From assembly GCF_010587385.1 (NCBI RefSeq), contig NZ_CP047476.1, positions 1,116,001 to 1,180,000 of the forward strand: a stretch of 64,000 bases of DNA. Reading direction: 5' to 3'. Shown piece by piece: positions 2,894 through 54,910 of the stretch. Under the pieces are notes generated by a model. That model saw only the letters and a program-made list of their open reading frames with translations. It had not been told where the DNA came from and did not search any database. Position 1 is the stretch's first letter. Each line of letters begins with the position of its first letter. Both the position numbers and the translations under genes were made by a program. The stretch comes from Vibrio astriarenae. GTDB taxonomy: Bacteria > Pseudomonadota > Gammaproteobacteria > Enterobacterales > Vibrionaceae.

Positions 2894-3604
2894 TTATTCA
2901 ATCCTTGTAATCACCAATTGAGCACCAGGGTTGAGGAAGCGATGAGTCGCATTCAGTGCTGAGCTCGACAAGCCATCGTCTTGCGAGATCACACCAGAGT
3001 GGAAAGCCACGCGGTCATCGTCATTGCGATCTGCATTGAACCCTTCGCCCCCTCCAGCAGGACCAGGAATCGTGCTCGCCAGTTCATCGTTGCCTTCCGT
3101 ACCAGAATCCCAAACACTCATGTTCATGGTGTACTTCTCGCCGACAGCTAACCCCGCAACATTAATGCCTGTTTCACCAACGAATGCATCATTGGTATTG
3201 ACCAGCATTGAAGCGACCGACAAATAGGGATAACTAGAATCCAGTGTTACGTCGACACTGTCAGCAGCGCCTGGAAGCAAGAGCCCATTACCCGATAACC
3301 CTTGGCCCACAGAGGAATTAGAGTCCATTAAGGCAATCAGTTCTGCGTTGCTCCCTCCCTCTGCTAAGTATTCAAGTTCAACAGAAGCCATACTACCGAT
3401 CTCGAACAGTTTGAAATCGCTATTGTGAGCTAAGATAGCAAGAGGTGACATTGGCTGATTGACTGTGAGGTTAGCGACACTGACGCTGTATCGCATCGTT
3501 GACTCATCTGCAGCGACTGCCGTTGCACTACTACCATCACTATCGTTACCACAACCAGCCAAGACAGCTATGGTACCCGCTAGAAATAAAATTCGACCTT
3601 TCAT
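2894..3604 (-). CDS. Spondin-domain lipoprotein
   Basis: A 236-residue exported protein with a lipoprotein signal: hydrophobic stretch then LAGCGND, giving Cys18 as the lipidated residue. The rest matches the bacterial Spondin_N type: a beta-rich domain with the pattern TVNQPMSPLAILAHNSDFKLFEIG, a GGS/ELEYLAEGG segment, an acidic GTEGNDELAS stretch and the C-terminal ATHRFLNPGAQLVITRI. It is a paralogue of the next gene, which has the same landmarks in the same order and is transcribed in the same direction nine bases upstream. Spondin domains mediate extracellular adhesion in animals; the bacterial role is unknown. It sits just upstream of a two-component system. Confidence 0.75.
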   Translation of the reverse strand: MKGRILFLAGTIAVLAGCGNDSDGSSATAVAADESTMRYSVSVANLTVNQPMSPLAILAHNSDFKLFEIGSMASVELEYLAEGGSNAELIALMDSNSSVGQGLSGNGLLLPGAADSVDVTLDSSYPYLSVASMLVNTNDAFVGETGINVAGLAVGEKYTMNMSVWDSGTEGNDELASTIPGPAGGGEGFNADRNDDDRVAFHSGVISQDDGLSSSALNATHRFLNPGAQLVITRIE

Positions 3605-3613
3605 ACATCCCCC

Positions 3614-4297
3614 TTACTTCACAACAATCGTGATTGTTGCAACTGGGTTCAGCCAGCGGTGCGAAGCATTATCAAGATCGCTGATACCACCAGAAGAATC
3701 GCTATCGCCAATGTTACCTGGGTGAATATGCACCTTGTCATTAGTTACTGTCGACTCTACCCCTGTGCCACCGCTACCAAAGGTAATAAAGGGAGGGTTT
3801 GGCATACTACCAGCAAGCTCATCATTTGCTTCAGTACCCGCATCATAGCCGTACAACGCGGCGCTATACGTTCCAGCTTCAGAAGGAATCGCCCAACTAT
3901 CCAGCCCTACGAAACCATCGTTTGTCGGCAACAACATAGCGCTTAAAGATAGGTAGCCCATTGTGCCACTATCAAGATAAAAAGTGGTACTCATGCCAGG
4001 ATCTAAAATGCCATCTGCTGGGTTTTCTACGACGACACCACCTGCATTACCAATCACGCTAGAGAGTCCTGAGATATCGCCACCTTCAGCCATCGATTCC
4101 AGCTCACTTGATGCCGTCTCGCCAGTACGGAACATAAATAAATCACTATTGTGAGCCGCAACGATTAACGGAGTAAAGTAGATGCCTTTGGTAGAATTGG
4201 TGACTGTGATTTCTAATTCTGCTGCGTTAACGAATGATGCCGACATTGCCACTGCCGAGGTAGAGACAAGTAAGCCGATTTGAGAGAGTTTTAACAT
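3614..4297 (-). CDS. Secreted spondin-domain protein
   Basis: A 227-residue paralogue of the adjacent lipoprotein. The ATG at 4297 starts a good Sec signal peptide ending near ASFVNA, with GGATT upstream; no lipobox Cys, so it is probably periplasmic or released. Shared landmarks are the HNSDLFMFRTGE segment, ELESMAEGGD, a GTEANDELAG stretch and the C-terminal ASHRWLNPVATITIVVK. It is probably co-transcribed with the lipoprotein copy (gap of nine bases), which suggests that the two act together, perhaps as a tethered and a free form. That last point is inference. Confidence 0.75.
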   Translation of the reverse strand: MLKLSQIGLLVSTSAVAMSASFVNAAELEITVTNSTKGIYFTPLIVAAHNSDLFMFRTGETASSELESMAEGGDISGLSSVIGNAGGVVVENPADGILDPGMSTTFYLDSGTMGYLSLSAMLLPTNDGFVGLDSWAIPSEAGTYSAALYGYDAGTEANDELAGSMPNPPFITFGSGGTGVESTVTNDKVHIHPGNIGDSDSSGGISDLDNASHRWLNPVATITIVVK

Positions 4298-40553: not shown

Positions 40554-41321
40554 CTACTTTTGCACACGCTCTAATTCTTTGAGCATTTGTAGCCCCATGT
40601 ATAATGCTTCCTCTGCATGACCATTTGAAACCTGTTGTCCATGAATAGCAGCATTGCAGATTTTCAATACATAGTCGTACGAGCTATGCATCCCTTGATA
40701 GTGAGGGTACTGATTTGTCAGTTCTTTAAATAGCTGCCTAGCAGACATGAACTTTGACTTCATGGCTGTAGGATCTGCTGTAGACGTCCGTTTCCCAAGT
40801 ATAGTGCGCATAGACTTTTCTAAGTCCATTCGCAAACGAGCTAGTGCAAAGTTCAAGTCGTTACCTGAAACACCAATGTAATCACTCAACTCATCATCTA
40901 GGTTTGACTCTGTATCGTCAGATTGAATTGTTGATTTCAGTTCTTCTTTTGCCTCTTGTACCTGCTCTCTTCCTGGTAGGTGAACATTTACAGTTTGATT
41001 CATAGTATTTGAGATTGCAGTTATCGTATTGCTGTATACGTTCAATATTTCTCTGGTCTCTCCTTTAAACTCTGTAACATCCGTTTTTACTTTTTCAATT
41101 TCTTTCTCAAAAGTTAGGAGTTTTCCGAGACTGATCTTTTTTGCTAATGGCAGGAGAACAAAAAACAGCGATAGAACTAATAGAAACGCAGATGTGCTCC
41201 CTATTTCATTTTTAGGAGGAAATCCAATTCCGTACAACCCAAGCATTAGCAGTCCGCAACCTATTAAACGACATAGGAAGGGAAACACATCAAATAATAA
41301 AATTTTCTTTAAAATATCCAC
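40554..41321 (-). CDS. Two-TM coiled-coil protein, integron cassette gene
   Basis: A 255-residue protein with two TM helices (about 5-32 and 42-62), a Glu/Lys-rich coiled coil (about 68-140) and an all-helical C-terminal domain (about 145-255). That domain's end, YDYVLKICNAAIHGQQVSNGHAEEALYMGLQMLKEL, resembles the C-terminal part of DUF4145/HEPN-like domains, but no R-x4-6-H catalytic motif is present. It lies between two attC sites. Membrane plus HEPN-like helices recalls defence effectors, but this is only a resemblance. Confidence 0.65.
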   Translation of the reverse strand: MDILKKILLFDVFPFLCRLIGCGLLMLGLYGIGFPPKNEIGSTSAFLLVLSLFFVLLPLAKKISLGKLLTFEKEIEKVKTDVTEFKGETREILNVYSNTITAISNTMNQTVNVHLPGREQVQEAKEELKSTIQSDDTESNLDDELSDYIGVSGNDLNFALARLRMDLEKSMRTILGKRTSTADPTAMKSKFMSARQLFKELTNQYPHYQGMHSSYDYVLKICNAAIHGQQVSNGHAEEALYMGLQMLKELERVQK

Positions 41322-41336
41322 GATAATTCCATGTAG

Positions 41337-41404
41337 TTATAACGCTTTAAAGACGGATTTTTTCCGCATTTGCACTCCGTCTATGTTGCGGCCATTTGTT
41401 ATGA
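41337..41404 (-). other. Short attC site (68 bp)
   Basis: Minus strand starts CATAACAAATGGCCGC and ends TTAAAGCGTTATAAC. Inner arms GACGGA/TCCGTC and CCGCA/TGCGG fold the bottom strand. The GTTAT core and size fit a compact attC. It lies 15 bases from the start of the two-TM gene, at the promoter side of the cluster. Confidence 0.7.
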
Positions 41405-42072
41405 AACTCAACTACTATCAAGCTTGTATTTGAATTGAAAGCGCATTTCAGGAGAAACTATGGAAATTTTCCGTAGTTTCTCCCTCAGTACTTGGATTAG
41501 ATTAATTTGGTCTGAGCCGAAAACTTTCAATGATAGAGTTTGGTGATTCTGAGAAGGAAAGGGGCATCAGTGTTTTCACTGCCCAAACTGACCCGGTTGA
41601 CATGCGAAACATGTTTGGCATCTAAGTCAACTATTTCGATGAGATTGATTGAATCATGGTTAGGTTATTTTGTTGATAGATGGCTGTTCGCCTTGGGTGG
41701 CGTGTAAACGGGAATCGGACTAATTAACGGAATAGAAGTCACCCTGTTTAACACCAAAATTTCAATCATCAATCACTGAGTATAAACTTCAAGCCGTTGA
41801 TATTATCTCATATTTAATCTTCCCTAGAGCAATACTATGAAGATATAGTTGTATGACAAGTAGTAACTACGTAAGTCACTGTAATTGAGAACAAAGTAGT
41901 ACCAGTACTAACAAGGTTAGGGGCAACAAACGGGCTAAAGACGAGCGCGCTGCAAGTATGCCTCTGGGCAAAGCTTTTCTATCAAAGCTTCTAGAGATGT
42001 CCAGTTCGCGGACTTTGATTAGGACTGTTGGCCTAGCCAGAATTCTGGAGGAGTCACGCCGACGTTGTACAC
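41405..42072. other. Gene-free interval at the head of the cassette cluster
   Basis: About 670 bases. No integrase gene and no attI that I can recognise. The one clear structure is a 33-base hairpin at 41452-41484 (see separate entry). The remainder includes stretches that look like decayed coding sequence, but I cannot assign them. Confidence 0.4.
41452..41484. repeat. Long perfect-arm hairpin
   Basis: GGAGAAACTA and TAGTTTCTCC are 10-bp perfect arms, extended inward by GGAAA/TTTCC around a single T/G mismatch. No T-run follows, so it is not a classical terminator. It could be an operator or a recombination structure. Confidence 0.6.
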
Positions 42073-42207
42073 GTGGACGAGATAATCGAATTTATGCAGG
42101 GACAAGGAACTTTTACTGGAACTGCTGTGATTGAACGTAAGAAAAAAGACAAGGAAGTAGAATCATGTTTTTATATTCAGGTGAAGAAAGACCTAGACAT
42201 GTTGTAG
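42073..42207 (+). CDS. Possible short ORF overlapping the next gene
   Basis: A 44-residue reading frame (GTG start, MDEIIEFMQGQGTFTGTAVIERKKKDKEVES..) whose last 43 bases overlap the next gene in another frame. The amino-acid pattern looks protein-like and the frame is open back to 42037, but the only purine-rich site (GGAGG at 42047) is too far from the GTG. It could be the decayed tail of a lost gene. Confidence 0.25.
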   Translation: MDEIIEFMQGQGTFTGTAVIERKKKDKEVESCFYIQVKKDLDML

Positions 42208-42866
42208 ACCTGCACGTTTACGTCTTTGATGAGAAGGCTCCGAGAGGATCTGAACCACTAGCCACAGTTAAAGAGTGGCATCAAAATCACGGTAAATTTC
42301 ACCTTGTGCCAATATCAGGCCGAGGAGAAACAGAAGAAAGCGCGCTCAGCGATGCAGTTAAAGCGTGCAGCCGTCATTTGCTAGAGGTAAATGAAAAGGC
42401 ATGTGCGAAGGTGTCGGAGGGTCTTGCAAGGGATGTCGATGAGCGGTTAAGAAAGCCGAACTTTTGCGAGTTCGCATATATCAACCACACTTATCATGCT
42501 GATATAAAGCTTTCAAGTAATCAAATCCAAAAACGTCTCTCAGCCCCGCCTAAATTGCGCCCGTTAAGTGGGCGGAGGGGTAGCGAGCAATACATCGCGT
42601 ACTCGGATAAAATAGTGCAATTCCACCCTCACATATCGACGAAAAAATTGATGGCTCAAGACATCGTGAAAAAGCACTTCGAGTTTCTTATGGCTACTGT
42701 AACTAATTTGACTGGAGCTGAGGCCGACAAAAAAAGCATCTCCAATCTAGCAACGGAAATGGCGTACCCAGCACTAAAGGAAATTCACGAATTTGGCATA
42801 AGTGATCAGGATGTTCGATACAGAGTTGAACTTGCGCTCTCCCATGTAGTAGCTCAACCGGGCTAA
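42165..42866 (+). CDS. Hypothetical protein of the island
   Basis: A 233-residue soluble protein. GGAAGTAG precedes the ATG. The first 100 residues look like a small alpha/beta domain (VVDLHVYVFDEKAPRGSEP.. and SGRGETEESALSDAVKACSRHLLEV); the rest is basic, then helical. No TM segment, signal or recognised motif. It is the only long plus-strand gene among minus-strand neighbours in the middle of the island. Function unknown. Confidence 0.6.
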   Translation: MFLYSGEERPRHVVDLHVYVFDEKAPRGSEPLATVKEWHQNHGKFHLVPISGRGETEESALSDAVKACSRHLLEVNEKACAKVSEGLARDVDERLRKPNFCEFAYINHTYHADIKLSSNQIQKRLSAPPKLRPLSGRRGSEQYIAYSDKIVQFHPHISTKKLMAQDIVKKHFEFLMATVTNLTGAEADKKSISNLATEMAYPALKEIHEFGISDQDVRYRVELALSHVVAQPG

Positions 42867-42910
42867 GTCACTTAGTGAAGTGTCCCGTTTTGCCGGTTCA
42901 AATCAAATAA

Positions 42911-43012
42911 TCACATTAGTCTATTTATGGTTACCAAGACAAGAATAGCCAAAATCAAAACCAGATGTGTGATTGAAGTAGATGATAGTAACTGAATAGT
43001 TTCAATAAGCAT
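42911..43012 (-). CDS. 33-residue single-TM peptide
   Basis: Minus-strand ORF MLIETIQLLSS... followed by a hydrophobic helix (THLVLILAILVLVTI) and the tail NRLM. AGAGG lies six bases before the ATG, a good ribosome-binding site. It is preceded by the unknown minus-strand gene and a hairpin. Size and layout resemble type I toxin peptides (Ldr/TisB class) or small membrane regulators. No antisense RNA promoter can be proved by eye. Confidence 0.45.
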   Translation of the reverse strand: MLIETIQLLSSTSITHLVLILAILVLVTINRLM

Positions 43013-43065
43013 TTGTAACCTCTATAAGTGTTAGTTCAATGCTAAAGACTTTTAAAGTTACTCGT

Positions 43066-43104
43066 AAGGAAAGTTATACAAGATTTCATCTATCAACTTT
43101 CCTT
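43066..43104 (-). terminator. Hairpin at the end of the hypothetical gene
   Basis: Perfect arms AAGGAAAGTT/AACTTTCCTT with a 19-base loop; one arm overlaps the stop codon of the gene ending at 43103. T-run weak. Confidence 0.45.
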
Positions 43105-43711
43105 AATTACGTGTCAAAAAGTTTCCAACGTTTTTCCTTGCCAGCTCAGCGTCCCAACCAGTGACAATTGCAACCATATTTATAAATTGGTTATTACTTG
43201 AAAATTTAATCATATTATCAGCGGCACTTGGATATGCCCAGTTCCACGCTTGATAGATTTTAGCTACCACATTTTGGGATTTGGCTTTTACAAAGGTTGC
43301 GTGATAGTCAGACTCCAGTTCTGCTTTTGAGACAAGTTCTTGCAAGAAATCGTGCACTCGTATGCACTCAAAGTGCTTGACCCCATTAGGTTCAACTTTG
43401 CTCGGAGGTAGTCTGAAGTAATGTGAACCGATGTCCAAAGTACGATCAGTTTTAGCGTCGTATCGAGTGACTAAATTACAGAGCTTTTTCGCTGATTTGG
43501 CAATTTCGTCAAGAATTTCGCGCATTTCTTTTGGGTGATTAGAAGTTTCTTGAGTCAAGTCAATTGAACCGCTATCGTCTATAGGAAGCCCACCAAGACC
43601 GTTCAATTGATACTCGATATTTTTAACCAAAAAACTCAAGTCATCCTCACTGAGTTGTAGTAGTTCTCTAAGCGAATTTACTTGATATTGACTTAACCTG
43701 TTGTCAACCAT
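43103..43711 (-). CDS. Hypothetical protein of the island
   Basis: A 202-residue soluble protein. The ATG at 43711 follows a strong GGAGGAAC site, so the in-frame extension to 43750 is unlikely. The N-terminal half is helical (LSQYQVNSLRELLQLSEDDLSFLVKNIEYQL); the C-terminal half contains the pattern KVEPNGVKHFECIRVHDFLQELV and FINMVAIVTGWDAELARKNVGNFL. No family recognised. It lies between the dispersed repeat (upstream) and a small TM peptide gene (downstream). Confidence 0.6.
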   Translation of the reverse strand: MVDNRLSQYQVNSLRELLQLSEDDLSFLVKNIEYQLNGLGGLPIDDSGSIDLTQETSNHPKEMREILDEIAKSAKKLCNLVTRYDAKTDRTLDIGSHYFRLPPSKVEPNGVKHFECIRVHDFLQELVSKAELESDYHATFVKAKSQNVVAKIYQAWNWAYPSAADNMIKFSSNNQFINMVAIVTGWDAELARKNVGNFLTRN

Positions 43712-43818
43712 GTTCCTCCAAATATATTTAACTCTGTTAAGGTGTGTCATACGACCTTAATCACTAAACCCTACGCATAGTGTAGTGGCATATTGAGTTT
43801 GCCCCTGATTAGAGATGG

Positions 43819-43922
43819 TAAGCCCCAACTTACTCACATTACACAGATAAGAAAAAATAGGTCAAATCACCTCTCTATGATTTGTGAGGTTGAGCGCTGC
43901 TGGCAAGGAAAGGGGCAGCTCT
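43819..43922. repeat. Dispersed intergenic repeat, copy 1
   Basis: About 104 bases, from GGTAAGCCCCAACTTACTC through ATTACACAGATAAGAAAA to TGGCAAGGAAAGGGGCAGC. It aligns to copy 3 (45846-45952) with substitutions and hardly any gaps, and over its right 60 bases to copy 2 (45145). It lies upstream of the minus-strand gene at 43103-43711. Confidence 0.75.
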
Positions 43923-44119
43923 TATTTACGCTGATCTACCCCGCTAGTAAGGGGCTGGACAAGAGCTTCTTAGAGTAACCAACTTAAATTAGGAAAATGC
44001 CGACGACTTTTAGTATCACAAAGTCGCTTCGTGAAGTGCCCAGTCTCGTTACTGCTGATAATTCTTTGTTCTCATAGAGTTTAGCCGCACTAATCTTAGC
44101 CATGACTCACATTCCCTAA
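43923..44119. other. Intergenic stretch between island genes
   Basis: Contains AAGTCGCTTCGTGAAGTGCCC (44022-44042 region), which matches AAGTCACTTAGTGAAGTGTCC at 42864-42884 at 18 of 21 positions. These two direct copies bracket the 43103 gene and the small peptide gene. No ORF is supported. Confidence 0.4.
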
Positions 44120-45067
44120 TTAATAGAAGTATTTAGCTAGAAGCTCATCACTATCGTCGAACTCGATAAAAATGCTATGGTCGAATACACCTTCAACAGG
44201 CGAGTAAAACACATACGCAGACCCGAAGTCTTTACCATCTTTTTCAATAGAGAAGCTACCATATTTGAACTCTATTTCACCCGCAGTCATTCCATGATCT
44301 GCAAGAAATAAGCGGACTTCGTTGATTAGCTGCTTTACATTACTCTCAGTCTTTTCAATTGCAATATCATGAAGAACAGCCCCCTTTTCCTTCTGGTTTG
44401 TTGACCAGTATGTCCACAACTCGTTATACGATTCATTTTGTTGAACGCATGCAGCTGTTTCCCAAACTTCTTTCTGAGCAAAATGATTATCTAATGCCAT
44501 CTCATCAGCCAGTAAGCTATTCTTATCGCGTATACCTTTATTCACTGACTTCCATTCATCTAATGCCACTACAGCTTGCTCAAACGTAAAGTCAGAGTTT
44601 TCACGAACCTTTAGGATTTCAACACCTTTAGAGTGCTGGTCATTCCAAAACTCTCTATTCTCACTTGCCTTTGCGTATCTTGCTGCACTTTCACTTGATA
44701 GCCTCATAGATGACTTTAATTTATCATTATTCTTGACGTGCTTAGAGCCAAGGCTTGGATATCTAAAGTACCCATCGAGTTCTTTTGGTAACTTCACAGT
44801 TTCGGCCATAGCCTCCTCTATTTCATTCTCCCAGAAGTCCATTGATTGCTTATCAATTACCTCAATGTTGAATTTTGCTTTCGCGATATCTAACACTTCA
44901 CCTCCATCAGTTGAGAAAGGATATTGGTTTCCACACAACTCAATCTGACCATTCATCTTCAACGACATTTTAGGGTGTACTTTCCCTAGCTGATGATTGA
45001 CGTAAGTGTACGCCCCAATAGAGCCTGTGACCAAGACTGCCGTAATAGCCATCGCTAGTTTCTTCAT
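44120..45067 (-). CDS. Hypothetical exported or membrane-anchored protein
   Basis: A 315-residue protein. The ATG at 45067 after CAGGAAC starts a hydrophobic N-terminus (MKKLAMAITAVLVTGSIGAYTYV), either a signal peptide or anchor. The chain is mostly helical and charged, with two Cys (ELCGNQ and AACVQQ) that could pair in the periplasm. No family recognised. An in-frame upstream extension to 45166 runs into the dispersed repeat and is not used. Downstream lies repeat copy 1. Confidence 0.6.
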   Translation of the reverse strand: MKKLAMAITAVLVTGSIGAYTYVNHQLGKVHPKMSLKMNGQIELCGNQYPFSTDGGEVLDIAKAKFNIEVIDKQSMDFWENEIEEAMAETVKLPKELDGYFRYPSLGSKHVKNNDKLKSSMRLSSESAARYAKASENREFWNDQHSKGVEILKVRENSDFTFEQAVVALDEWKSVNKGIRDKNSLLADEMALDNHFAQKEVWETAACVQQNESYNELWTYWSTNQKEKGAVLHDIAIEKTESNVKQLINEVRLFLADHGMTAGEIEFKYGSFSIEKDGKDFGSAYVFYSPVEGVFDHSIFIEFDDSDELLAKYFY

Positions 45068-45144
45068 TGTTATGTTCCTGAAGTAATTGATGTCAACTGA
45101 CCTGAAGCTCTTATTATTAAATATATGGGACGGTTTCGAAATAG

Positions 45145-45206
45145 AAAGTAGATCAAACCAACACACTGTTATTTGTGAGATTGAACGTTACTGGCAAGGA
45201 ATGGGG
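45145..45206. repeat. Dispersed intergenic repeat, copy 2 (short)
   Basis: The right-hand 62 bases of the repeat: AGTAGATCAAACCAACACAC through TTGTGAGATTGAACG to TGGCAAGGAATGGGGCAA. More diverged than copies 1 and 3. It lies just upstream of the gene at 44120-45067. Confidence 0.65.
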
Positions 45207-45373
45207 CAAATTCGAGCTACGCTCCCAAACCAGAGCAGCTTAGGACCTAACTTTATTGGAAAAATAGTTAATTTGGCAAAGTACGAATTTGGTGGAATAC
45301 GGCAAACTGCAATTTGTAAAGACATCGTTTTTGTTGAGATATCGCCCCCTCCCTGAAGAACGCGATAGGTCTG

Positions 45374-45814
45374 TCATAACGTTCTGATTTGGAGCATGTA
45401 ACTTCTCTTTCTAAAGCCAAGCTTCTCATAGAATGGGATGACTTCTTCATTGCCAACTGCAACCGAGATATTCACTTGATTGCAATTGTGGTCACTTAGC
45501 CATGATATCGCCGATTGAATAAGTTGCTTGCCTATAGAAGAACCTTGGTATTGAGGTTTTACATATAGTTAATCAACTTCTCCCGAGTCATTGGTAACCG
45601 AAGCGATACAATAACCAACGAGTTCAGAGCCAATTTTGGCGGCATAGACTGCCAATAGCTCCGCTTGCAATAGTTTTTCAATGCGATCTGAGAAAGAGAA
45701 AGAAGCATAATGATCTTTGAAGTTGTCTGATTTAATAAAGTGCAGCTCATTAAGTTCGCACCACAAGTGTTCGATTTCCGAAATACTATCTCTTGATATC
45801 TCAACGATTTCCAT
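45374..45814 (-). pseudogene. GNAT-family acetyltransferase interrupted by an in-frame stop
   Basis: Reading the minus strand from ATG 45814 gives a normal GNAT N-terminus (EISRDSISEIEHLWCELNELHF) to GEVD, then TAA at 45569-45571, and the same frame continues LYVKPQYQGSSIGKQLIQSA.. (the acetyl-CoA-binding motif A, R/Q-x-x-G-x-G/A) to FYEKLGFRKRSYMLQIRTL and a stop at 45374. The 146-codon length is right for the family; the expected residue at the stop is usually Ser (D-S-L-Y-V), one base from TAA. So a single nonsense change, or a sequencing error, breaks the gene. Confidence 0.8.
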
Positions 45815-45845
45815 TCGTGTCTCTCATTTTCGTTTAGAGCGCTTT

Positions 45846-45952
45846 GGTAAGATCCCAGCTTACTCGACATTACACAGATAAGAAAATGTAGGTCAAACCA
45901 CCTCACAGTGATTTGTGAGGTTGAATGCTACTGGCAAGGAATGGGGCATTTC
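45846..45952. repeat. Dispersed intergenic repeat, copy 3
   Basis: GGTAAGATCCCAGCTTACTC through ATTACACAGATAAGAAAA to TGGCAAGGAATGGGGCATTT. The inner part has the dyad ACCTCAC/GTGAGGT. It lies just upstream of the broken GNAT gene. Next to it GGGGCAT/ATGCCCC forms another small hairpin (45945-45966). Confidence 0.75.
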
Positions 45953-46017
45953 CTGTTTCATGCCCCGCAAGAAATACTTTGGAGAAAATTGAGTTTTAGC
46001 TTTTGTTAAATTAGCAT

Positions 46018-46404
46018 TCAGCTGATTTTTTTTGCCACAATTGTAAGGCCTTCTGTATAACTATATCCGTAACCATAACCATAGCCGGAACCTCCATAGT
46101 CTCTCCTACCTTTTTGCTGATCCCAATCATACTTATATTTGGCAGATGTAACAGGTGTTACAGATATGACCTCATAGCCTTCCTTGTTAAGGCTCATGAT
46201 TGCATTTTGCAAGTCTTCTGACAGCTTCCCCCCATCGATCTCACAATCAGACCAGCCTGTTTGCTCCCAGCTTCGCTCCTCAGTCATTATATCTTTTTCG
46301 CCGCCAAATAAGCCTTTCTTCTTCTCGCCTGAAGGAACCATAATCGTATTTATCTTTCCTACAGGTTTAAATTTTGCTTCAACAAACACAACCTTGTTTA
46401 TCAT
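46018..46404 (-). CDS. Hypothetical protein with Gly/Tyr-rich tail segment
   Basis: A 128-residue soluble protein. The first 90 residues look like a compact beta/alpha fold (KVVFVEAKFKPVGKINTIMV.., ELSEDLQNAIMSLNKEGYEVISVTPV). A low-complexity GGSGYGYGYGYSY stretch follows at about 106-118, and a last strand GLTIVAKKIS. The pattern NKEGYEVISVTPV is reminiscent of DUF4177-type small proteins, which is a weak lead. A TTTAACAAAAGC sequence beyond the stop resembles the left end of an attC. Confidence 0.55.
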   Translation of the reverse strand: MINKVVFVEAKFKPVGKINTIMVPSGEKKKGLFGGEKDIMTEERSWEQTGWSDCEIDGGKLSEDLQNAIMSLNKEGYEVISVTPVTSAKYKYDWDQQKGRRDYGGSGYGYGYGYSYTEGLTIVAKKIS

Positions 46405-48329: not shown

Positions 48330-48714
48330 GGGTTCAAAGGGCGATGGCAACGGATAGATTGGACAACCACACCCTCAATTAGTGAAGCGGAATTTATAGC
48401 AACCGGAGCATATTCTTCATTGGCACTAATTAAGCACTTTTGGTTTAAGTCTAAAAGCTTGACTACGAAAAGCCCTTCATGAGTTGCTACAACACATCAC
48501 CGTGGCGAGGTATAGAGGCTCGGTCTATCACAAGTAAATCACCGTCATAAATCCCAACACCTATCATACTGTCACCTTGAGCGCGAACGAAGTAAGTAGA
48601 AGATTTACGCTCACCAATAATGAGATCATCTAAGCTCAATGATCTTAGCGCTTTATATTCTGCAGCCGGTGATTCAAATTGACTAATCCCTGCACTAGCA
48701 TTGAGTAGTGACAT
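48326..48714 (-). pseudogene. umuD: umuD with a one-base frameshift
   Basis: The frame from ATG 48714 gives a UmuD-like protein with an Ala-Gly cleavage site (NASAG), SPAAEYKALRSLSLDDLII, the catalytic Ser in RAQGDSMIG and DGDLLVIDRASIPRHGDV, then stops early at 48487. Shifting frame near 48490 restores VVATHEGLFVVKLLDLNQKC.., which holds the catalytic Lys, and ends in a TGA that overlaps the umuC ATG. The total of 389 bases is one short of 130 codons, so one base is missing. It is either a real inactivation or a sequencing error. Confidence 0.85.
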
Positions 48715-48843: not shown

Positions 48844-49188
48844 CTAATCCTCTTCGGACTGTTCAGAGTTTCTCGTGCTTGCGAGCATTTCGGAAGTAAT
48901 GCTTAGTACCTTTTCTCTCTCGCCTTTTGACAATTTAGATAGGTTAATAGCCAACTCAGCAGAAACCTCATCTTCACAGAAAAAATAGTTTAAAGGGACT
49001 CCAAGCTCATCCGCCAGTGATTTAAGCGTACTGATGTCAGGCGTGTGTTTTCCCTTCTCATATTGGTTCATTCGAGGGCTTGCAGAGCTTTCATCCATAC
49101 CTATGCGCACCCCCAAGGCTTTCTGAGAGAGTTTTGCTTTTTTTCTTGCTTCTTTAAGACGCTCTGGGATTGGGCTAATGAAGGACAC
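48844..49188 (-). CDS. XRE-family (Cro/CI type) repressor
   Basis: A 114-residue regulator with an HTH_3 domain (about 8-66: RLKEARKKAKLSQKALGVRIGMDESSASPRMNQYEKGKHTPDISTLKSLADELGVPLNYFF) and a short acidic helical tail, no peptidase domain. It is divergent from the winged-helix/helicase pair, with two identical palindromes between them, so it probably represses both directions. It would be the control gene of that module. Confidence 0.88.
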   Translation of the reverse strand: MSFISPIPERLKEARKKAKLSQKALGVRIGMDESSASPRMNQYEKGKHTPDISTLKSLADELGVPLNYFFCEDEVSAELAINLSKLSKGEREKVLSITSEMLASTRNSEQSEED

Positions 49189-49217
49189 TTTTTATTCATA
49201 TGTATGATCACAAGGTA

Positions 49218-49234
49218 ACTAAGATTTTCTTAGT
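49218..49234. promoter_or_regulatory. Operator 1 of the XRE/helicase module
   Basis: ACTAAG-atttt-CTTAGT, a perfect 6-bp dyad with a 5-base spacer, in the 102-base divergent promoter region. Confidence 0.75.
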
Positions 49235-49251
49235 TTTACTAATTTCTGTAT

Positions 49252-49268
49252 ACTAAGCAATCCTTAGT
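49252..49268. promoter_or_regulatory. Operator 2 of the XRE/helicase module
   Basis: ACTAAG-caatc-CTTAGT, the same dyad and spacer as operator 1, 34 bases away. It overlaps a likely -10 element TATACT (49249-49254) of the rightward promoter, as expected for repression. Confidence 0.75.
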
Positions 49269-49290
49269 TTTTTCTTGGTGTAAGTTTTAA

Positions 49291-49815
49291 ATGAAACGTT
49301 CTACTAAAATCAGTGCAATGATGCACAAGTTATTGATTGAAAGGGAAATGGATGGCTTTTCAGTTGTTGAGTTAAGAGATGCCTTTGTTTCTACTGACAA
49401 TAGTGGAACTGATCCTGACGAAGCTAGAAGAATGGTGTATCGCCAGATCAGACGCTTCACTGACAACGAATGGCTAAGAATAGAGGGTAAGGGACGCGAG
49501 AAACGGTATTTTCAAACTAAGCAGTTTAAAACCCTAGAGGTTTCGTCAAAAGACGAAACAACGCGGTTGAGTTTACCTGCAAGCCCTGATTATTCAGTAT
49601 TGATATCTGAGTGCAGTCAATATAGAGCGGAGCTTGAAATTGTGCTTAGTGAAATTGATGAATATCAATCAGTTATTCATCGCTTTGGAGAGCTTGAAAC
49701 AAAATTGAAACCCTTACTCGAACAAGCGAAAGAGAGGTCAGCGAAATTGCTTGGCAAAGTGAACGTACTCACGAACACTCTCAACACGATTTCTGAACAA
49801 GTAAAGCCATGTTAA
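49291..49815 (+). CDS. Winged-helix / coiled-coil protein, partner of the helicase
   Basis: A 174-residue protein. Residues 8-85 look like a winged-helix domain (FSVVELRDAFVSTDNSGTDPDEARRMVYRQIRRFTDNEWLRIEGKGREKRYF, with the wing hairpin at the end). Residues 105-165 form a helical coiled coil with a loop. No known family recognised. Its last seven bases overlap the helicase start, so the two are translationally coupled and probably act as one complex; this gene would give DNA recognition. That role is inference. Confidence 0.75.
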   Translation: MKRSTKISAMMHKLLIEREMDGFSVVELRDAFVSTDNSGTDPDEARRMVYRQIRRFTDNEWLRIEGKGREKRYFQTKQFKTLEVSSKDETTRLSLPASPDYSVLISECSQYRAELEIVLSEIDEYQSVIHRFGELETKLKPLLEQAKERSAKLLGKVNVLTNTLNTISEQVKPC

Positions 49816-51191
49816 GGTTTTGGCAGGCAGAGTGCTCAGACGACGCATTCGAAAAATACTCAAATAGGCAGAATCATTTCTTTTGCCAAGCAACGCCTGG
49901 TGCAGGCAAAACTGTGTTGGCCGCGAACATAGCTTCGAGATTACTTGAAAGTAACATGATAGACCTTGTGTTGTGTTTTTCACCTTCATTAGCTGTTGCA
50001 GAAGGGATAAAGAAGACCTTTTCGAATACTCTTAAATGTTCTTTTAGCGGCGAATTAGGCTCTATTGGACGATCGCTCACTTATCAATCGATTCAGTTTC
50101 TCGATGAGGGCTTTTGGGAAACGCTGAGTAAGTATCGTGTGTTTGTCGTTTTTGATGAGATTCATCATTGCTCTGGTTCTGAAGTTGGTTCAGCGAATGT
50201 CTGGGGACAACAAATACTGACTAAAATTCAAGGTTTGGCCACATACACACTCGCAATGTCAGGGACTCCTTGGCGCTCGGATTCATTGCCAATTGTTTTG
50301 GCTGAATATAGCGACCCAGATGGAGAGTTAGTGGTTGACTACCAATACACTTTAAAGCAAGCCATTGCCGACAAAGTTTGTCGAAGTCCAAAGATTGTTC
50401 TAGTCGATAACGAACATTTGACAGTAACCAACGATGATGAAAAACAGTCTTTTTCGTCGATTCTGGAAATGCTTGAACAAACCAAAACCTCTTACCAAAG
50501 TATTCTTCACAACCAAGAGGCGATGGAGCATTTACTTGGCCTAGGTTGCAAAAAGCTCGAAGAGCTACGTCGTATTAAAAGTGATGCAGGGGGCTTAGTC
50601 GTTGCCTCTTCCGTCGCACACGCACACAAGATTAAAAGGATACTTGCAAAAAAATACGCTCAAACAGTTTCTATTGTAACGTATCGCCACGAAGAGCCAC
50701 TGGCAGAAATAGAACGATTTCGGAGTAGTGATACGGAATGGATCGTTAGTGTGGGGATGATTAGCGAGGGGACTGATATACCTCGCCTACAAGTTTGTTG
50801 CCACATGAGTGCGGTTAAAACTGAGCTGTATTTTAGGCAAGTACTTGGTCGTATCCTTAGAGCAAATGGAATTGCCCCTCAGTATGCATGGCTGTTTACT
50901 TTTGCAGAGCAAAGCTTGATAGAGTTCTCTGAGCAAATTGAACAAGATATCCCAACGTCCTGCATGTTCGCTAGCGTAAAAATGCCAATAGCGCAGGATT
51001 TAATTACTGCAGTTAAAATAGCAGAAACCAAAATAACCCAACAAACTGAAGACTTCGCAGACCAGAGAGTGATGTGGGATCCCAAGACTAAAGATGGCTC
51101 AACGCAAGTGCTAGATTATACTCTAGATGAAATAAGGCTTGGCTCATTCAAGCAAAGAGTTATCGCGGCATTTACGGCACGCGAACAGTAA
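49809..51191 (+). CDS. Superfamily 2 DEAD/DEAH-type helicase
   Basis: A 460-residue two-domain SF2 helicase. Motif I is in QATPGAGKTVLAA (about residue 25), motif II in VVFDEIHHCSG (DEIH, about 115), motif III in LAMSGTPWRSD, motif V in SVGMISEGTDIPRLQ, and motif VI in FRQVLGRILRANG. It belongs to the group near type III restriction Res subunits and other nucleic-acid translocases. No nuclease domain follows. The compact size, the coupled winged-helix partner and the divergent XRE repressor make a self-contained module in the mobile region; a defence role is possible but unproved. Confidence 0.9.
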   Translation: MLRFWQAECSDDAFEKYSNRQNHFFCQATPGAGKTVLAANIASRLLESNMIDLVLCFSPSLAVAEGIKKTFSNTLKCSFSGELGSIGRSLTYQSIQFLDEGFWETLSKYRVFVVFDEIHHCSGSEVGSANVWGQQILTKIQGLATYTLAMSGTPWRSDSLPIVLAEYSDPDGELVVDYQYTLKQAIADKVCRSPKIVLVDNEHLTVTNDDEKQSFSSILEMLEQTKTSYQSILHNQEAMEHLLGLGCKKLEELRRIKSDAGGLVVASSVAHAHKIKRILAKKYAQTVSIVTYRHEEPLAEIERFRSSDTEWIVSVGMISEGTDIPRLQVCCHMSAVKTELYFRQVLGRILRANGIAPQYAWLFTFAEQSLIEFSEQIEQDIPTSCMFASVKMPIAQDLITAVKIAETKITQQTEDFADQRVMWDPKTKDGSTQVLDYTLDEIRLGSFKQRVIAAFTAREQ

Positions 51192-51532
51192 GGCGGTGCA
51201 AGGCCAGTAGGCCTTGTTTTAAGCTCATTGTACCCGTTTTACATGGCAGCTGCTCACCAGCAAACATCTGGACAAAAGTGCGTTAGAAAGGCCACTCTAA
51301 AACTTATATTCTAGAAAAGATTAAGTATTGTTAATACCATTAAACTCTCGTATGAATCAGTTATACTGAGTCATACACGAATTTGACGACTTTGGCGATG
51401 TAACTCGAACAGATCGTACACACGAAAACTCCAGGTTAGCCTCGGTAATGATAGACAAAGCGCTTTCTCTACGATTTTTCACTATTTATTTGTCTCACTA
51501 ATTGCCGAGCTTTTACAGAAAACCTGCCATAA
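51192..51532. other. Intergenic region after the helicase, with palindrome
   Basis: About 340 bases between two convergent genes. A 27-base near-perfect palindrome lies at 51350-51376: GTATGAaTCAGT-tat-ACTGAgTCATAC, one mismatch. No T-run follows, so it is not a classical terminator. No ORF is supported. Confidence 0.5.
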
Positions 51533-52570
51533 CTATTGCTTAATAGGCAAGTTGATATTGGATTGAGTAAGCAGTGAAGACACTGTTCTTATTCCGTGTG
51601 AATCTGCTCCCAGTAGATTCTGATAGCCAATCAAACGTGGAGTTAGGCTCGTGTCTTCCTTAGCTATATCTGCTTTTATAGATGACATAGCCTGAATTGC
51701 GTTTTGTATCGTTGTTTCATCAAGTTTCGATAGAAAAAGAAGACTTGAGCGAATACTTGAACCATTAATGCCTAATGTTTGTACAGACATGCTTCCTGAC
51801 ACCTCACCATTCTGAGCAGCTAGTGAGAGCGCACTTAAGTTTCCAAGCTCTACGCTTCCTTTTAGTACATTAATGTTTGCTTTGAGCCGAATACCAATAC
51901 CTATATACACAGGAATCGAGAAAACACTAGGTTCCACATTTGCTCGTTTAATTTCTGAGACTGAAGGTGAACGAAAAACTGTTTTAAATGTACCATCAGA
52001 AACTATCCCACAATTTAGGTCCTCTTTTACGATTCTGCTAGCGTTTGCCTGAAAGTCCGCTGCATCTCCTTCGTTAACGGCTTTTAACGACCAAATTTCG
52101 TTTTTATCTTTCGCAATTATGTCGCCAATTTCTCTCTCATAGGGGTAGCACCTGTTTCTCATTACTGTCTGAGGAGGTACATCTACAAACCACTTACCGT
52201 ATAAATTTACTGGATAAGTCATTGAGTTTATGTAGTCAATTACAACTTCATAAGAATTACCTTCAACACCAACTCCAAGTCCAATCGTCGGTATACTACC
52301 ATCCAGTGATTGTGACGTTTGCCTAGTAGATATCCTCACAGAATTATCGGGCAAGAGCTTTAGAAGTTTTTCATTTTTTTCTTTTTGGTTAGTGTTTGTT
52401 GATTCGTTCACAATGTATGTGACATTTATTGGTTCGAGAGGCACGTATGTATAACTGTTTGTCACTTCCGCTTGTGTTGAAGGCAACTGTTGATTGTTCC
52501 AAGTTCTCTGAACTATTCCACAAGACGTCAAACTAATGCACATTAAGACCAAGATTAATTTTTCGTTCAT
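51533..52570 (-). CDS. Hypothetical lipoprotein
   Basis: A 345-residue lipoprotein: ATG 52570 with GGATGAG upstream, lipobox ISLTSCGIV. After a Ser/Thr/Asn/Gln-rich linker the chain is beta-rich (NSYEVVIDYINSMTYPVNLYGKWFVDVPPQTV), then helical. No family recognised. It is the last gene of the island on its right side, convergent with the helicase. It resembles host-interaction lipoproteins of mobile islands only in general form. Confidence 0.65.
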   Translation of the reverse strand: MNEKLILVLMCISLTSCGIVQRTWNNQQLPSTQAEVTNSYTYVPLEPINVTYIVNESTNTNQKEKNEKLLKLLPDNSVRISTRQTSQSLDGSIPTIGLGVGVEGNSYEVVIDYINSMTYPVNLYGKWFVDVPPQTVMRNRCYPYEREIGDIIAKDKNEIWSLKAVNEGDAADFQANASRIVKEDLNCGIVSDGTFKTVFRSPSVSEIKRANVEPSVFSIPVYIGIGIRLKANINVLKGSVELGNLSALSLAAQNGEVSGSMSVQTLGINGSSIRSSLLFLSKLDETTIQNAIQAMSSIKADIAKEDTSLTPRLIGYQNLLGADSHGIRTVSSLLTQSNINLPIKQ

Positions 52571-52935
52571 CACCGCTCATCCTTTTCTTTGAGTGACTAA
52601 CAATAGAATAGGCATGAAAGCTCATATCTGCTAACCAAACGACCTTTTCTATCATTGGTCTAACTAAAAAATAAGCAATGATGCTGACGTTTATGGTTCT
52701 GGTTTGCTTGTCCAAACTCACTTCGGGGCAAAAATGAGTTTATTCCCGCAAAGCATCACCCCTCAACGCCTCAAAAGTGCGCCTTTAAGAAGTGACTAAT
52801 TTTCTGGAAACTGGTAGCATCAAAGTTCAAGATTTAGGAAAAGCAGCTAAAAATTACTGTTTTTCTGGAAAAGGCTCGTAAGCCTTATCACGCAAACCTT
52901 TCCAGATTTATTGCTGAAACCACCTGTGTAGGTAA
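52571..52935. other. Right edge of the accessory island
   Basis: No gene. An inverted repeat TCTGGAAAAGG (52864-52874) / CCTTTCCAGA (52897-52906), with AAGGCT-cgta-AGCCTT nested inside, lies about 35 bases before the point where the truncated backbone gene becomes readable. A third TCTGGAAA occurs near 52804. Confidence 0.4.
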
Positions 52936-53334
52936 TTTAAGAATACACTGCAAGAGAATCGCAAACGCTCACCAGAAAAAGAGCAGAACTCGTTTGTGAC
53001 TGTGAACTCTTTCTTAAACCCTGATTGGGGGCTTGGTGTTCGCGATACAATGAGTCAATCACTGCGTCGTCTGGAAAACTTGACCGATCGCCATCAAGAG
53101 CTAGATGGAAAGATGGATGCAGAAAAAATGCGTTATATCTTCGACCTCCCTCTTTACAACGAAGATGGCACCTTTAAAGAAAATGGTGGTGTAACCAAAC
53201 CAACGAACCAAGATGTTGATTTGACGAACTACCAAGTGGTCACTGATCTGAAAGAGATGAACTTCTCTATCAAGCTTCCTGCCCTTGGAGAAAATTGGGT
53301 CACTGTTGACCTGAACGAAATGTTCAATAAGTAA
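52936..53334 (+). pseudogene. 3' remnant of an AAT/C45-type Ntn-hydrolase gene
   Basis: An open frame from 52936 (first stop upstream at 52933) with no credible start. The peptide (NSFVTVNSFLNPDW.., TMSQSLRRLENLTDRHQELDG, IFDLPLYNEDGTF, YQVVTDLKEMNFSIKLP) resembles the C-terminal third of acyl-CoA:6-aminopenicillanic-acid acyltransferase/C45-type hydrolases. These normally have a nucleophile Cys at the N-terminus of the mature chain; that part is missing here. A GTG at 52996 allows a 112-codon ORF, but it is mid-domain. The gene appears to be cut at the island junction and ends with a normal terminator. Confidence 0.6.
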
Positions 53335-54421: not shown

Positions 54422-54910
54422 CTATGAGAAACGTTCGCCTGTACTCATGTCATCTTCAAAGTAACCACCGCCAGTCTTTTCACTTGGGTCTTGATAATCA
54501 AAACGCTCACCTGTACGCATGCTATCTTCAAAGTAGCCACCACCAGTTTTCTCACTTGGGTCTAGGTAAGCAAAACGCTCGCCTGTACGCATGTTATCTT
54601 CAAAGTAGCCACCACCGGTTTTCTCACTTGGGTCTAGGTAAGCAAAACGCTCACCTGTACGCATATTATCTTCGAAGTAACCACCACCAGTTTTCTCACT
54701 TAGATCTAGGTAAGTAAAACGCTCACCGGTACGCATACTGTCTTCGAAGTATCGCTCACCCGTGCGTTGATCGTCTTCATTATAAGTAAAGCCTTGCTCT
54801 GCAGAGCCTGACATTGCAGTTCCCATAGCATCAGTCACTTGTGTGCTTGCTGCAAATGCTGCAGGAGTAATCAACAGAGTAGTCATTAATACCGTCGCTA
54901 GAGTTTTCAT
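54422..54910 (-). CDS. Secreted protein built of 24-residue tandem repeats
   Basis: A 162-residue exported protein (signal peptide to about AAFA). After a short lead, the chain is tandem copies of a 24-residue unit, GGGYFEDNMRTGERFAYLDP plus SEKT: about five units, the outer ones diverged. The unit is rich in Gly, Glu, Asp, Arg, Tyr and Phe and has no Cys. Repeats at DNA level are nearly identical, so copy number may vary among strains. I know no function; it could be an intrinsically disordered surface or periplasmic protein. Monocistronic. Confidence 0.8.
   Translation of the reverse strand: MKTLATVLMTTLLITPAAFAASTQVTDAMGTAMSGSAEQGFTYNEDDQRTGERYFEDSMRTGERFTYLDLSEKTGGGYFEDNMRTGERFAYLDPSEKTGGGYFEDNMRTGERFAYLDPSEKTGGGYFEDSMRTGERFDYQDPSEKTGGGYFEDDMSTGERFS
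54430..54760 (-). repeat. 72-bp coding tandem repeat
   Basis: The octamer AAACGCTC recurs at 54501, 54573, 54645 and 54717, exactly 72 bases apart, inside the repeat-protein gene. The period is a multiple of three, so unit gain or loss keeps the frame. Confidence 0.9.

Follow-up and report, generated by a model that had tools for sequence, protein, structure and literature searches.

A controller, winged-helix protein and SF2 helicase cassette in Vibrio that may be timed to the entry of non-viral mobile elements

A three-gene cassette with a restriction-type controller

A 64-kb stretch of the Vibrio astriarenae genome (NCBI RefSeq assembly GCF_010587385.1, contig NZ_CP047476.1; hereafter the window), at positions 1,116,001-1,180,000 of the second of the two contigs of this 4.8-Mb genome, carries a compact cassette that consists of an XRE-family repressor gene (XRE) and, divergent from it behind two operators, the genes for a winged-helix coiled-coil protein (WH) and a superfamily 2 (SF2) ATPase with helicase motifs (HEL). 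We tentatively propose, at somewhat less than an even chance, that WH and HEL are a controller-timed DNA-remodeling pair of non-viral mobile elements, which would be silent in a settled host and switched on at entry. We favor this reading because of the logic of the controller, an operator shared with the region before tniQ, the recurrent place of the cassette at the core of unrelated elements, and its near absence from viral collections. The copy in the window stands alone: no transposon was found in its surroundings. An earlier note on this DNA, made from the letters alone, had described the three open reading frames (ORFs), an overlap of the WH and HEL genes, and two identical operators. 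The ORFs are present as described and the overlap is 7 bp. The operators are real, with identical half-sites (ACTAAG at 49218 and 49252; core CTAAG at 49219 and 49253), 19 bp between them, and differing centers (ATTTT and CAATC).

By sequence similarity, XRE is a restriction controller of the C.Csp231I class. It matches the C.Csp231I structure 3lfp in a sequence search of the PDB (E 1.3e-19) and the PADLOC Control_protein model (E 1.4e-25), and Pfam HTH_3 also matches. C.Csp231I is described as binding CTAAGN5CTTAG twice, with an 18-bp spacer, and its DNA contacts include Ser32, Gln37, and His43 (PMC4321490); in an alignment to 3lfp these residues correspond to S37, Q42, and H48 of XRE. Among 66 loci with the same controller class, a script found two operators in 61, always 19 bp apart, one in 2, and none in 3, although both operators are visible on reading in two of the three script-negative loci (L007 and L008). 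The third base of the half-site covaries with residue 42, CTAAG being paired with Gln in 30/30 loci and CTTAG with His in 35/35, and a single locus combines CTCAG with Gln. This covariation argues strongly that the controller and the operators form a matched set. A second, shorter controller class is found in 16 loci, 13 of which have GGA(C/T)TATAATCC alongside.

The two operators of the cassette are the sole matches to CTAAG-N5-CTTAG in the 64 kb of the window, for which shuffled sequences predict 0.04. Genome-wide, the pattern has five matches per strand versus seven for a reversed control pattern, so single matches are at chance level. The O1/O2 pair is the only tandem pair of matches in the genome, and its conservation among the same-class loci places it beyond chance.

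Operators of the same kind are also present in front of transposon genes. The operator search covered L004-L009, L011, L013-L092, and the window. Of the 13 same-class loci that show tniQ, 10 have an extra operator 28-39 bp before the match to this gene (L005, L006, L046, L056, L059, L063, L065, L071, L072, and L077), and the remaining three (L074, L076, and L078) do not. Single controller-type operators were further found ~250 bp upstream of the tnsA match in L057 and L058 (L057:5245, L058:5245). Outside CRISPR-associated transposons (CASTs), a scan of HEL-containing loci revealed no XRE operator beyond the cassette promoter. Direct control by XRE of the defense genes located behind HEL was considered and rejected, since there is no operator there; in the 10 loci with hsdR next after HEL, the gap is 79-148 bp and several gaps contain a TATAAT-like box, as judged by eye.

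Occurrence and co-divergence of the three genes

Of 196 genomes from the genus, 77 have HEL matches with E values of 1e-30 or better, up to six each, and HEL is not fixed in a non-mobile Vibrio backbone, the distribution that the earlier note had named as counter-evidence. WH was found in 90 of the 196. The neighborhood survey that the note had called for shows that the coupled pair recurs: WH lies no more than 2.5 kb from HEL in 111 of the 113 HEL places tallied (the other two are gene fragments), and 111 of 131 WH places have HEL while 20 lack it (second pieces of split genes were left out of both tallies). A scan of 84,980 species genomes yielded 450 relatives, the named close relatives of the cassette belonging to Vibrio and kin. 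The best 80 of these 450, six plasmid loci, a second copy in the V. astriarenae genome, and the window make up the 88 loci compared here. By tblastn, WH is next to HEL in 87 of them, a divergent XRE is present in 86, and all three genes are in order in 86. When ORFs were required under a stricter rule, a strong HEL ORF was present in 87 loci, WH just upstream of it in 83 (with a 7-bp overlap in 55), and a divergent XRE in 82; the misses (four without WH, five without XRE) are mostly due to the rule, and L087 ends at a contig edge. One locus (L067:6623-11311) contains XRE, WH, and the first 95 residues of HEL, followed 2.2 kb on by a HEL match without the first residues, and is a rearranged copy.

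In a draw of genomes from the phylum, HEL was present at E 1e-60 or better in 12 of 398, all in the class of the window host or nearer, and one of the plasmid WH sequences was found at near identity in 1 of 5,426 E. coli genomes. When the 2.9 million viral contigs of IMG/VR were scanned by pattern, one distant relative was returned, and 50,697 phage records gave five distant hits; by this pattern scan the cassette is nearly absent from viral collections.

Across 61 loci, distances in WH and in the HEL core are correlated at 0.86-0.88, compared with 0.86 for the two halves of WH itself and 0.50-0.54 for XRE and WH. These values, which are correlations and not proof of a complex, suggest that WH and HEL act as one unit and that the controller is more exchangeable.

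Predicted structures of WH and HEL

HEL has Pfam matches to ResIII (3e-14), Helicase_C (6e-7), and DEAD, with no other family above threshold, and is distantly like XPB (XPBII) and RadD in a profile search of the PDB. Its motor motifs are invariant in 34 aligned rows, and its structural model (pLDDT 77) has two RecA domains and a disordered tail of ~60 residues. The PADLOC 2023 models give weak superfamily hits, to PbeA and others. An ordinary chromosomal helicase such as RadD was rejected as the identity of HEL, which scores 48 bits against a cut-off of 720 and has a patchy distribution. In agreement with the earlier note, no nuclease or methylase domain was found in HEL or WH (Pfam, PADLOC, NCBIfam, and PHROGs; HEL model), and HEL shows no sign of the nuclease domain that accompanies the motor in ResIII/HsdR-type endonucleases. 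Membership in a restriction system was rejected: the controller fits and the enzymes do not. Homology to a known restriction pair, which the note had considered, holds for the controller alone. The pair had not been recognized as a described system, and it has no match in PADLOC 2023, Pfam, NCBIfam, or PHROGs; WH and HEL together match no single anti-phage system of PADLOC 2023.

Profile searches with the 174-residue WH, as proposed in the note, returned nothing above threshold in Pfam, PADLOC 2023, NCBIfam, or PHROGs, and a profile search of the PDB gave no match. In the AlphaFold2 model (mean pLDDT 82), a winged helix is joined by a disordered linker to a long antiparallel coiled coil. Its best Foldseek matches are PadR-like regulators, weakly (E 8.9e-3), with nothing at E 0.001. 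A fold assignment beyond winged helix plus coiled coil was tried and set aside, as the rows for PadR, Csa3, and RosR are middling, like those for coiled coils, and no function was drawn from them. Of 63 WH homologues, only one or two gave hits in PADLOC, and these were weak. Annotation and context suggest a tie of WH to VspR: the homologue on plasmid MAO6 is annotated vspR_2, and a 60% homologue lies in the context of a cyclic-oligonucleotide-based anti-phage signaling system (CBASS). The published account describes vspR as a negative regulator of CBASS that lowers CBASS transcripts and is without effect on CBASS-dependent drug sensitivity (PMC10653837).

Mobile-element and defense neighbors

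Among the 80 named loci, Tn7-like CRISPR transposon genes are present in 25, an integrase-trio set (presumably the Gamma-Mobile-Trio) in 17, a recombinase pair in 2, and a single trio hit in 1. The cassette is located within 64 bp of the core match (tnsC) in 18 of the 25 CAST loci and within 1.4 kb in all; in the 17 trio loci it is 27-190 bp from the trio matches in 3 and within 5.7 kb in all. In V. rotiferianus (L073) the order is cas6 - XRE - WH - HEL - tnsC. Counted from the side of cas7, 56 places were considered, after omission of 21 hits that were weaker (E of 3e-32 or higher) and were assumed to be canonical I-F, and of six second pieces of split genes. WH is within 45 kb of 38 of the 42 I-F3b-like places and HEL of 29 of the 42; at the same distance, WH and HEL are each near 12 of the 14 I-F3a-like places, a set that retains G190, a fragment below the cut (11 of 13 without it), and G086, a broken gene at 51% identity. 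The self-contained and mobile character claimed by the earlier note is borne out. What the note had missed is the C.Csp231I class of the controller, the presence of the same trio of genes beside the I-F3 CAST core, and the apparent tie of WH to VspR by annotation and context.

Defense genes are common around the cassette as well. Plasmid copies lie between the integrase trio and CBASS (L008), SIR2/TrlF (L007), or ubiquitin-like genes (L165), or beside TIR/CBASS-effector genes (L166); the annotation of a P. aeruginosa plasmid (L009) shows no defense or trio neighbor right beside the cassette. A PADLOC scan of the first gene beyond HEL, covering the downstream side in 74 of the 80 loci, found one type I restriction-subunit model in 10 of the 74 and type I methylase models in 3-4, among the best 25 of 215 families. 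Such neighbors are weak evidence for a defense function, because the cargo of these elements is defense-rich anyway and the scan had no upstream-side control.

WH loci without HEL

We examined 18 of the 20 WH places that lack HEL and profiled genes from seven of them and from one plasmid. Locus L142 contains XRE, WH, an 82-aa ORF, CapV (by profile), DncV (by similarity), two genes that we take by eye to be Cap2 and Cap3, and the trio genes. A ThsB-type TIR protein (L132) or HsdR (L136) is among the next few genes after WH, a PtuA-like ATPase and its partner follow WH in L137, SIR2 lies near WH on the other strand in L133, and IetA is near the WH of plasmid L163. In L148, HipA is ~30 bp away from what is only a weak WH match (E 2e-6). 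The following genes are mostly hundreds of bases off or on the other strand, and they could be either under XRE-WH control or mere next cargo. Similar proteins of 80-82 aa occur between WH and the CBASS- or Thoeris-like gene in L142 (7259-7507, minus strand) and L132 (8936-9178, plus strand); the 82-aa protein of L142 matches nothing in Pfam at 1e-3 or in PADLOC at 1e-10.

Proposed function and alternatives

Under the entry reading, the controller of a settled element would activate its own gene and repress the WH-position gene, as has been seen by others in one homologue. In Vibrio parahaemolyticus island VpaI-7, VpxR (VPA1391) stimulates its own expression and represses VPA1392, a divergent hypothetical gene whose promoter is about 5-fold up in a vpxR mutant and differs 24-fold on VpxR overexpression (PMC12150760); the tight repression proposed by the earlier note is thus backed for a homologue. 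Entry of the element into a controller-free cell would release a burst of WH and HEL, WH would bind DNA and recruit or steer the HEL translocase, and HEL might remodel complexes of protein and DNA, whether on the element itself, at the target, or on the defense cargo (compare the lowering of CBASS transcripts by VspR). The element would settle before the controller accumulates and shuts the pair off. Since the same controller class has an operator before tniQ-cas in I-F3b-type transposons, the pair would be tied to transposition.

Several observations weigh against this interpretation. H-NS, LeuO, and ToxR also silence the VPA1392 promoter, so the controller is not the sole brake, and CAST machinery assembled from tniQ-cas and tnsABC works in E. 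coli, so WH and HEL are not needed for transposition as such (both PMC12150760). None of the tested mobility genes is seen in 35 of the 80 named loci, a few of which may be uninformative because they are truncated at contig ends, 9 of the 38 I-F3b-like places with WH lack HEL, and 81 of the 131 WH places are away from any CAST cas7. The Gln/His covariation may reflect few ancestral switches, and defense genes beside the cassette fit a defense function equally. In a wider form, which we regard as possible and rather doubtful, unrelated non-viral elements (CRISPR transposons, integrase-trio islands, recombinase islands, and plasmids) would share one entry machine, namely an SF2 translocase that is guided by a winged-helix protein and fires upon zygotic release from a restriction-type controller. 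The Xre proteins of I-F3a and I-F3b, described as "independently coopted", would have come with two versions of the cassette and later taken over tniQ or guide-RNA promoters.

The earlier note had offered two alternatives, a defense system or a regulator of a mobile element, and both are retained. As a stand-alone anti-phage or anti-plasmid defense, which we consider a serious but less than probable explanation, WH would sense or mark foreign DNA, HEL would unwind it or translocate on it, and the controller would keep a costly system low, as for restriction enzymes. The class of the controller, the ResIII-like motor, the type I restriction and methylase genes first beyond HEL, the CBASS, SIR2, TIR, and ubiquitin-like genes near plasmid copies, and ThsB, HsdR, PtuA-like, and CapV genes among the next few genes of HEL-less loci are all consistent with it. 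However, no PADLOC 2023 system matches the pair (the few hits are weak and fall in individual WH-family proteins), and the two proteins show no nuclease or other effector domain. The operators before tniQ in CASTs and the near absence from viral contigs in the pattern scan also speak against this explanation. That XRE and WH regulate in two tiers any cargo that comes next, as VspR does for CBASS, with HEL merely the commonest target or a co-regulator, seems improbable. WH does occur without HEL far more often (20 of 131 places) than HEL without WH (2 of 113, both fragments), differing systems follow it, and VspR lowers CBASS transcripts (PMC10653837); but the WH and HEL genes overlap or nearly touch and co-diverge, the genes after HEL-less WH are mostly distant or on the other strand, and the scan of HEL-containing non-CAST loci showed no XRE operator outside the cassette. 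We consider it very unlikely that the cassette is a toxin-antitoxin-like addiction module in which WH and HEL harm the cell once the controller is lost. Its controller architecture and plasmid presence would suit such a module, whereas HEL-less and broken copies persist, and a transcriptional controller alone gives no post-segregational killing. A vpxR insertion mutant of V. parahaemolyticus was made and assayed (PMC12150760), which also argues against addiction.

The cassette and its surroundings in the window

Table 1 Features of the cassette, in window coordinates
Feature	Position	Strand	Basis
XRE repressor, C.Csp231I-class controller, 114 aa	48844-49188	-	PDB, PADLOC, and Pfam matches
Operator O1, CTAAG-ATTTT-CTTAG	49219-49233	.	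Shared by 30 loci of its operator clade
Putative -10 box TATACT of the WH-HEL promoter, lying between/over O1 and O2	49249-49254	+	Inferred; TGTATACT consensus in both operator clades
Operator O2, CTAAG-CAATC-CTTAG	49253-49267	.	Overlaps the putative -10 box
WH, 174 aa: winged helix 1-86, disordered linker, antiparallel coiled coil 102-170; VspR-like	49291-49815	+	AlphaFold2 model
HEL, 460-aa SF2 ATPase: two RecA-like domains, motor motifs, disordered tail 381-439, short C-terminal strand pair	49809-51191	+	Pfam, PDB profile, model
Terminator-like hairpin AAGGCC-AGTA-GGCCTT then GTTTT, 3' of HEL	51199-51220	+	Read from sequence, found in multi-locus comparison

XRE, WH, and HEL look like a closed unit (Table 1), because a terminator-like hairpin follows HEL. 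This hairpin is missing from the list of a stricter terminator scan, and the putative -10 box is absent from the output of a consensus promoter scan. Among the compared loci, the window copy is nearest to that of plasmid MAO6 (identities of 79% for XRE, 77% for WH, and 78% for HEL). A second, diverged XRE-WH-HEL copy, with 49% identity in HEL, is located in an island on the other contig of the genome. At this locus (L011, C1:291000-309999) the cassette lies amid FRG-like, AAA, and recombinase-like genes, named by eye, and two similar methyltransferase-like ORFs (2965-3423 and 3520-4050, also named by eye) at one end suggest a target duplication.

No integrase was found near the window cassette, in agreement with the earlier note, by a seed search of the window and by Pfam searches of 16 ORFs of the region. 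The window has no seed match to Tns, TniQ, or Cas proteins, and no mobility gene was found beside the cassette. The genome has no cas7 match at E 1e-10, and one trio protein was not found in it by a search that had no positive control. An attempt to delimit the island by comparison with 20 relatives was abandoned, as the flanks are too divergent and no empty site was found. The neighboring "umuDC" of the earlier note is correct for umuC, which is full-length, and is not an intact operon, because the umuD ORF (48351-48714, minus strand) ends at 75 aa, short of the expected C-terminal peptidase half; by its sequence this umuD looks like a decayed gene. Eight scanned ORFs around the cassette (40554-46404 and 51533-53334) lack a confident Pfam match, which would fit an accessory region. 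A 162-aa ORF at 54422-54910 (minus strand) is built of imperfect repeats that are FEDNMRTGERFAYLDPSEKTGGGY-like.

Relation to published systems

Parts of this cassette are already published, namely the transposon Xre regulators (RtaC, RtbC, and VpxR), the repression of VPA1392, and the enrichment of SSL2 and hipB in Shewanella transposons. The Xre proteins RtaC and RtbC of I-F3a and I-F3b transposons are described as independently coopted, with zygotic induction (PMC11406308). The Xre regulators of Shewanella fall into a cluster with C.Csp231I, and the cargo genes with the highest enrichment include hipB and ssl2 (PMC12452197); we infer that these two are XRE and HEL. In the open-licence literature, we found no account of the cassette as one shared unit, of the operator/Gln-His covariation, of operators before tniQ, or of WH-HEL co-divergence. 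The "hypothetical gene plus helicase" that appears piecemeal in transposon papers can now be read as a single cassette, which has a defined switch and is found repeatedly next to the core of mobile elements of several kinds. If the entry reading is true, CRISPR transposons and defense-carrying islands have a common early-establishment step, which would account for Xre regulators that look independently acquired. In that case the Gln or His at one contact residue would also offer a natural operator/controller specificity pair.

The closest published counterpart is the I-F3 CAST of VpaI-7, in which, as in the cassette, a divergent controller and a gene in the WH position are followed by an SSL2 helicase before tnsC (PMC12150760, PMC11961994). 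TnsC is VPA1394 in this island (PMC12150760) and VPA1393 is tagged as an SSL2 helicase in a published table (PMC11961994). The published work treats the regulator and calls VPA1392 hypothetical, and its authors regard it as unknown whether VPA1392 belongs to the transposon (PMC12150760). The likeness is one of published gene order (VPA1391-1394), and the window copy differs in its C.Csp231I controller class and in that no transposon genes were found around it. Relative to the I-F3 CAST module of the RtbC type, the controller divergent from WH and HEL, with operators of its class, is present in the window, whereas the Tn7-like CAST setting was not found there.

C.Csp231I and XRE are alike in sequence family, operator, near-identical spacing, and DNA-contact residues. 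C.Csp231I, however, controls a type II restriction-modification system, while the window XRE has no restriction or methylase gene under its control and, unlike C.Csp231I, is divergent from the genes behind its own operators. For VspR (VC0177), the order of L142 (XRE, WH, 82-aa ORF, CapV, DncV, Cap2, Cap3, trio) is the order given for the VSP-1 CBASS island (PMC10653837). The likeness of WH to VspR is one of annotation and context; VspR is followed by CBASS and the window WH by a helicase. HEL has the RecA folds and motor motifs of XPB/Ssl2, RadD, and ResIII-type SF2 translocases, but none of the nuclease, damage-recognition, or specificity domains of these proteins was seen in it. The combination of a partner protein with an SF2 motor resembles Hachiman and similar helicase defense pairs as they are outlined in the literature; the Hachiman partner is a nuclease, whereas the partner of HEL is a winged-helix coiled coil.

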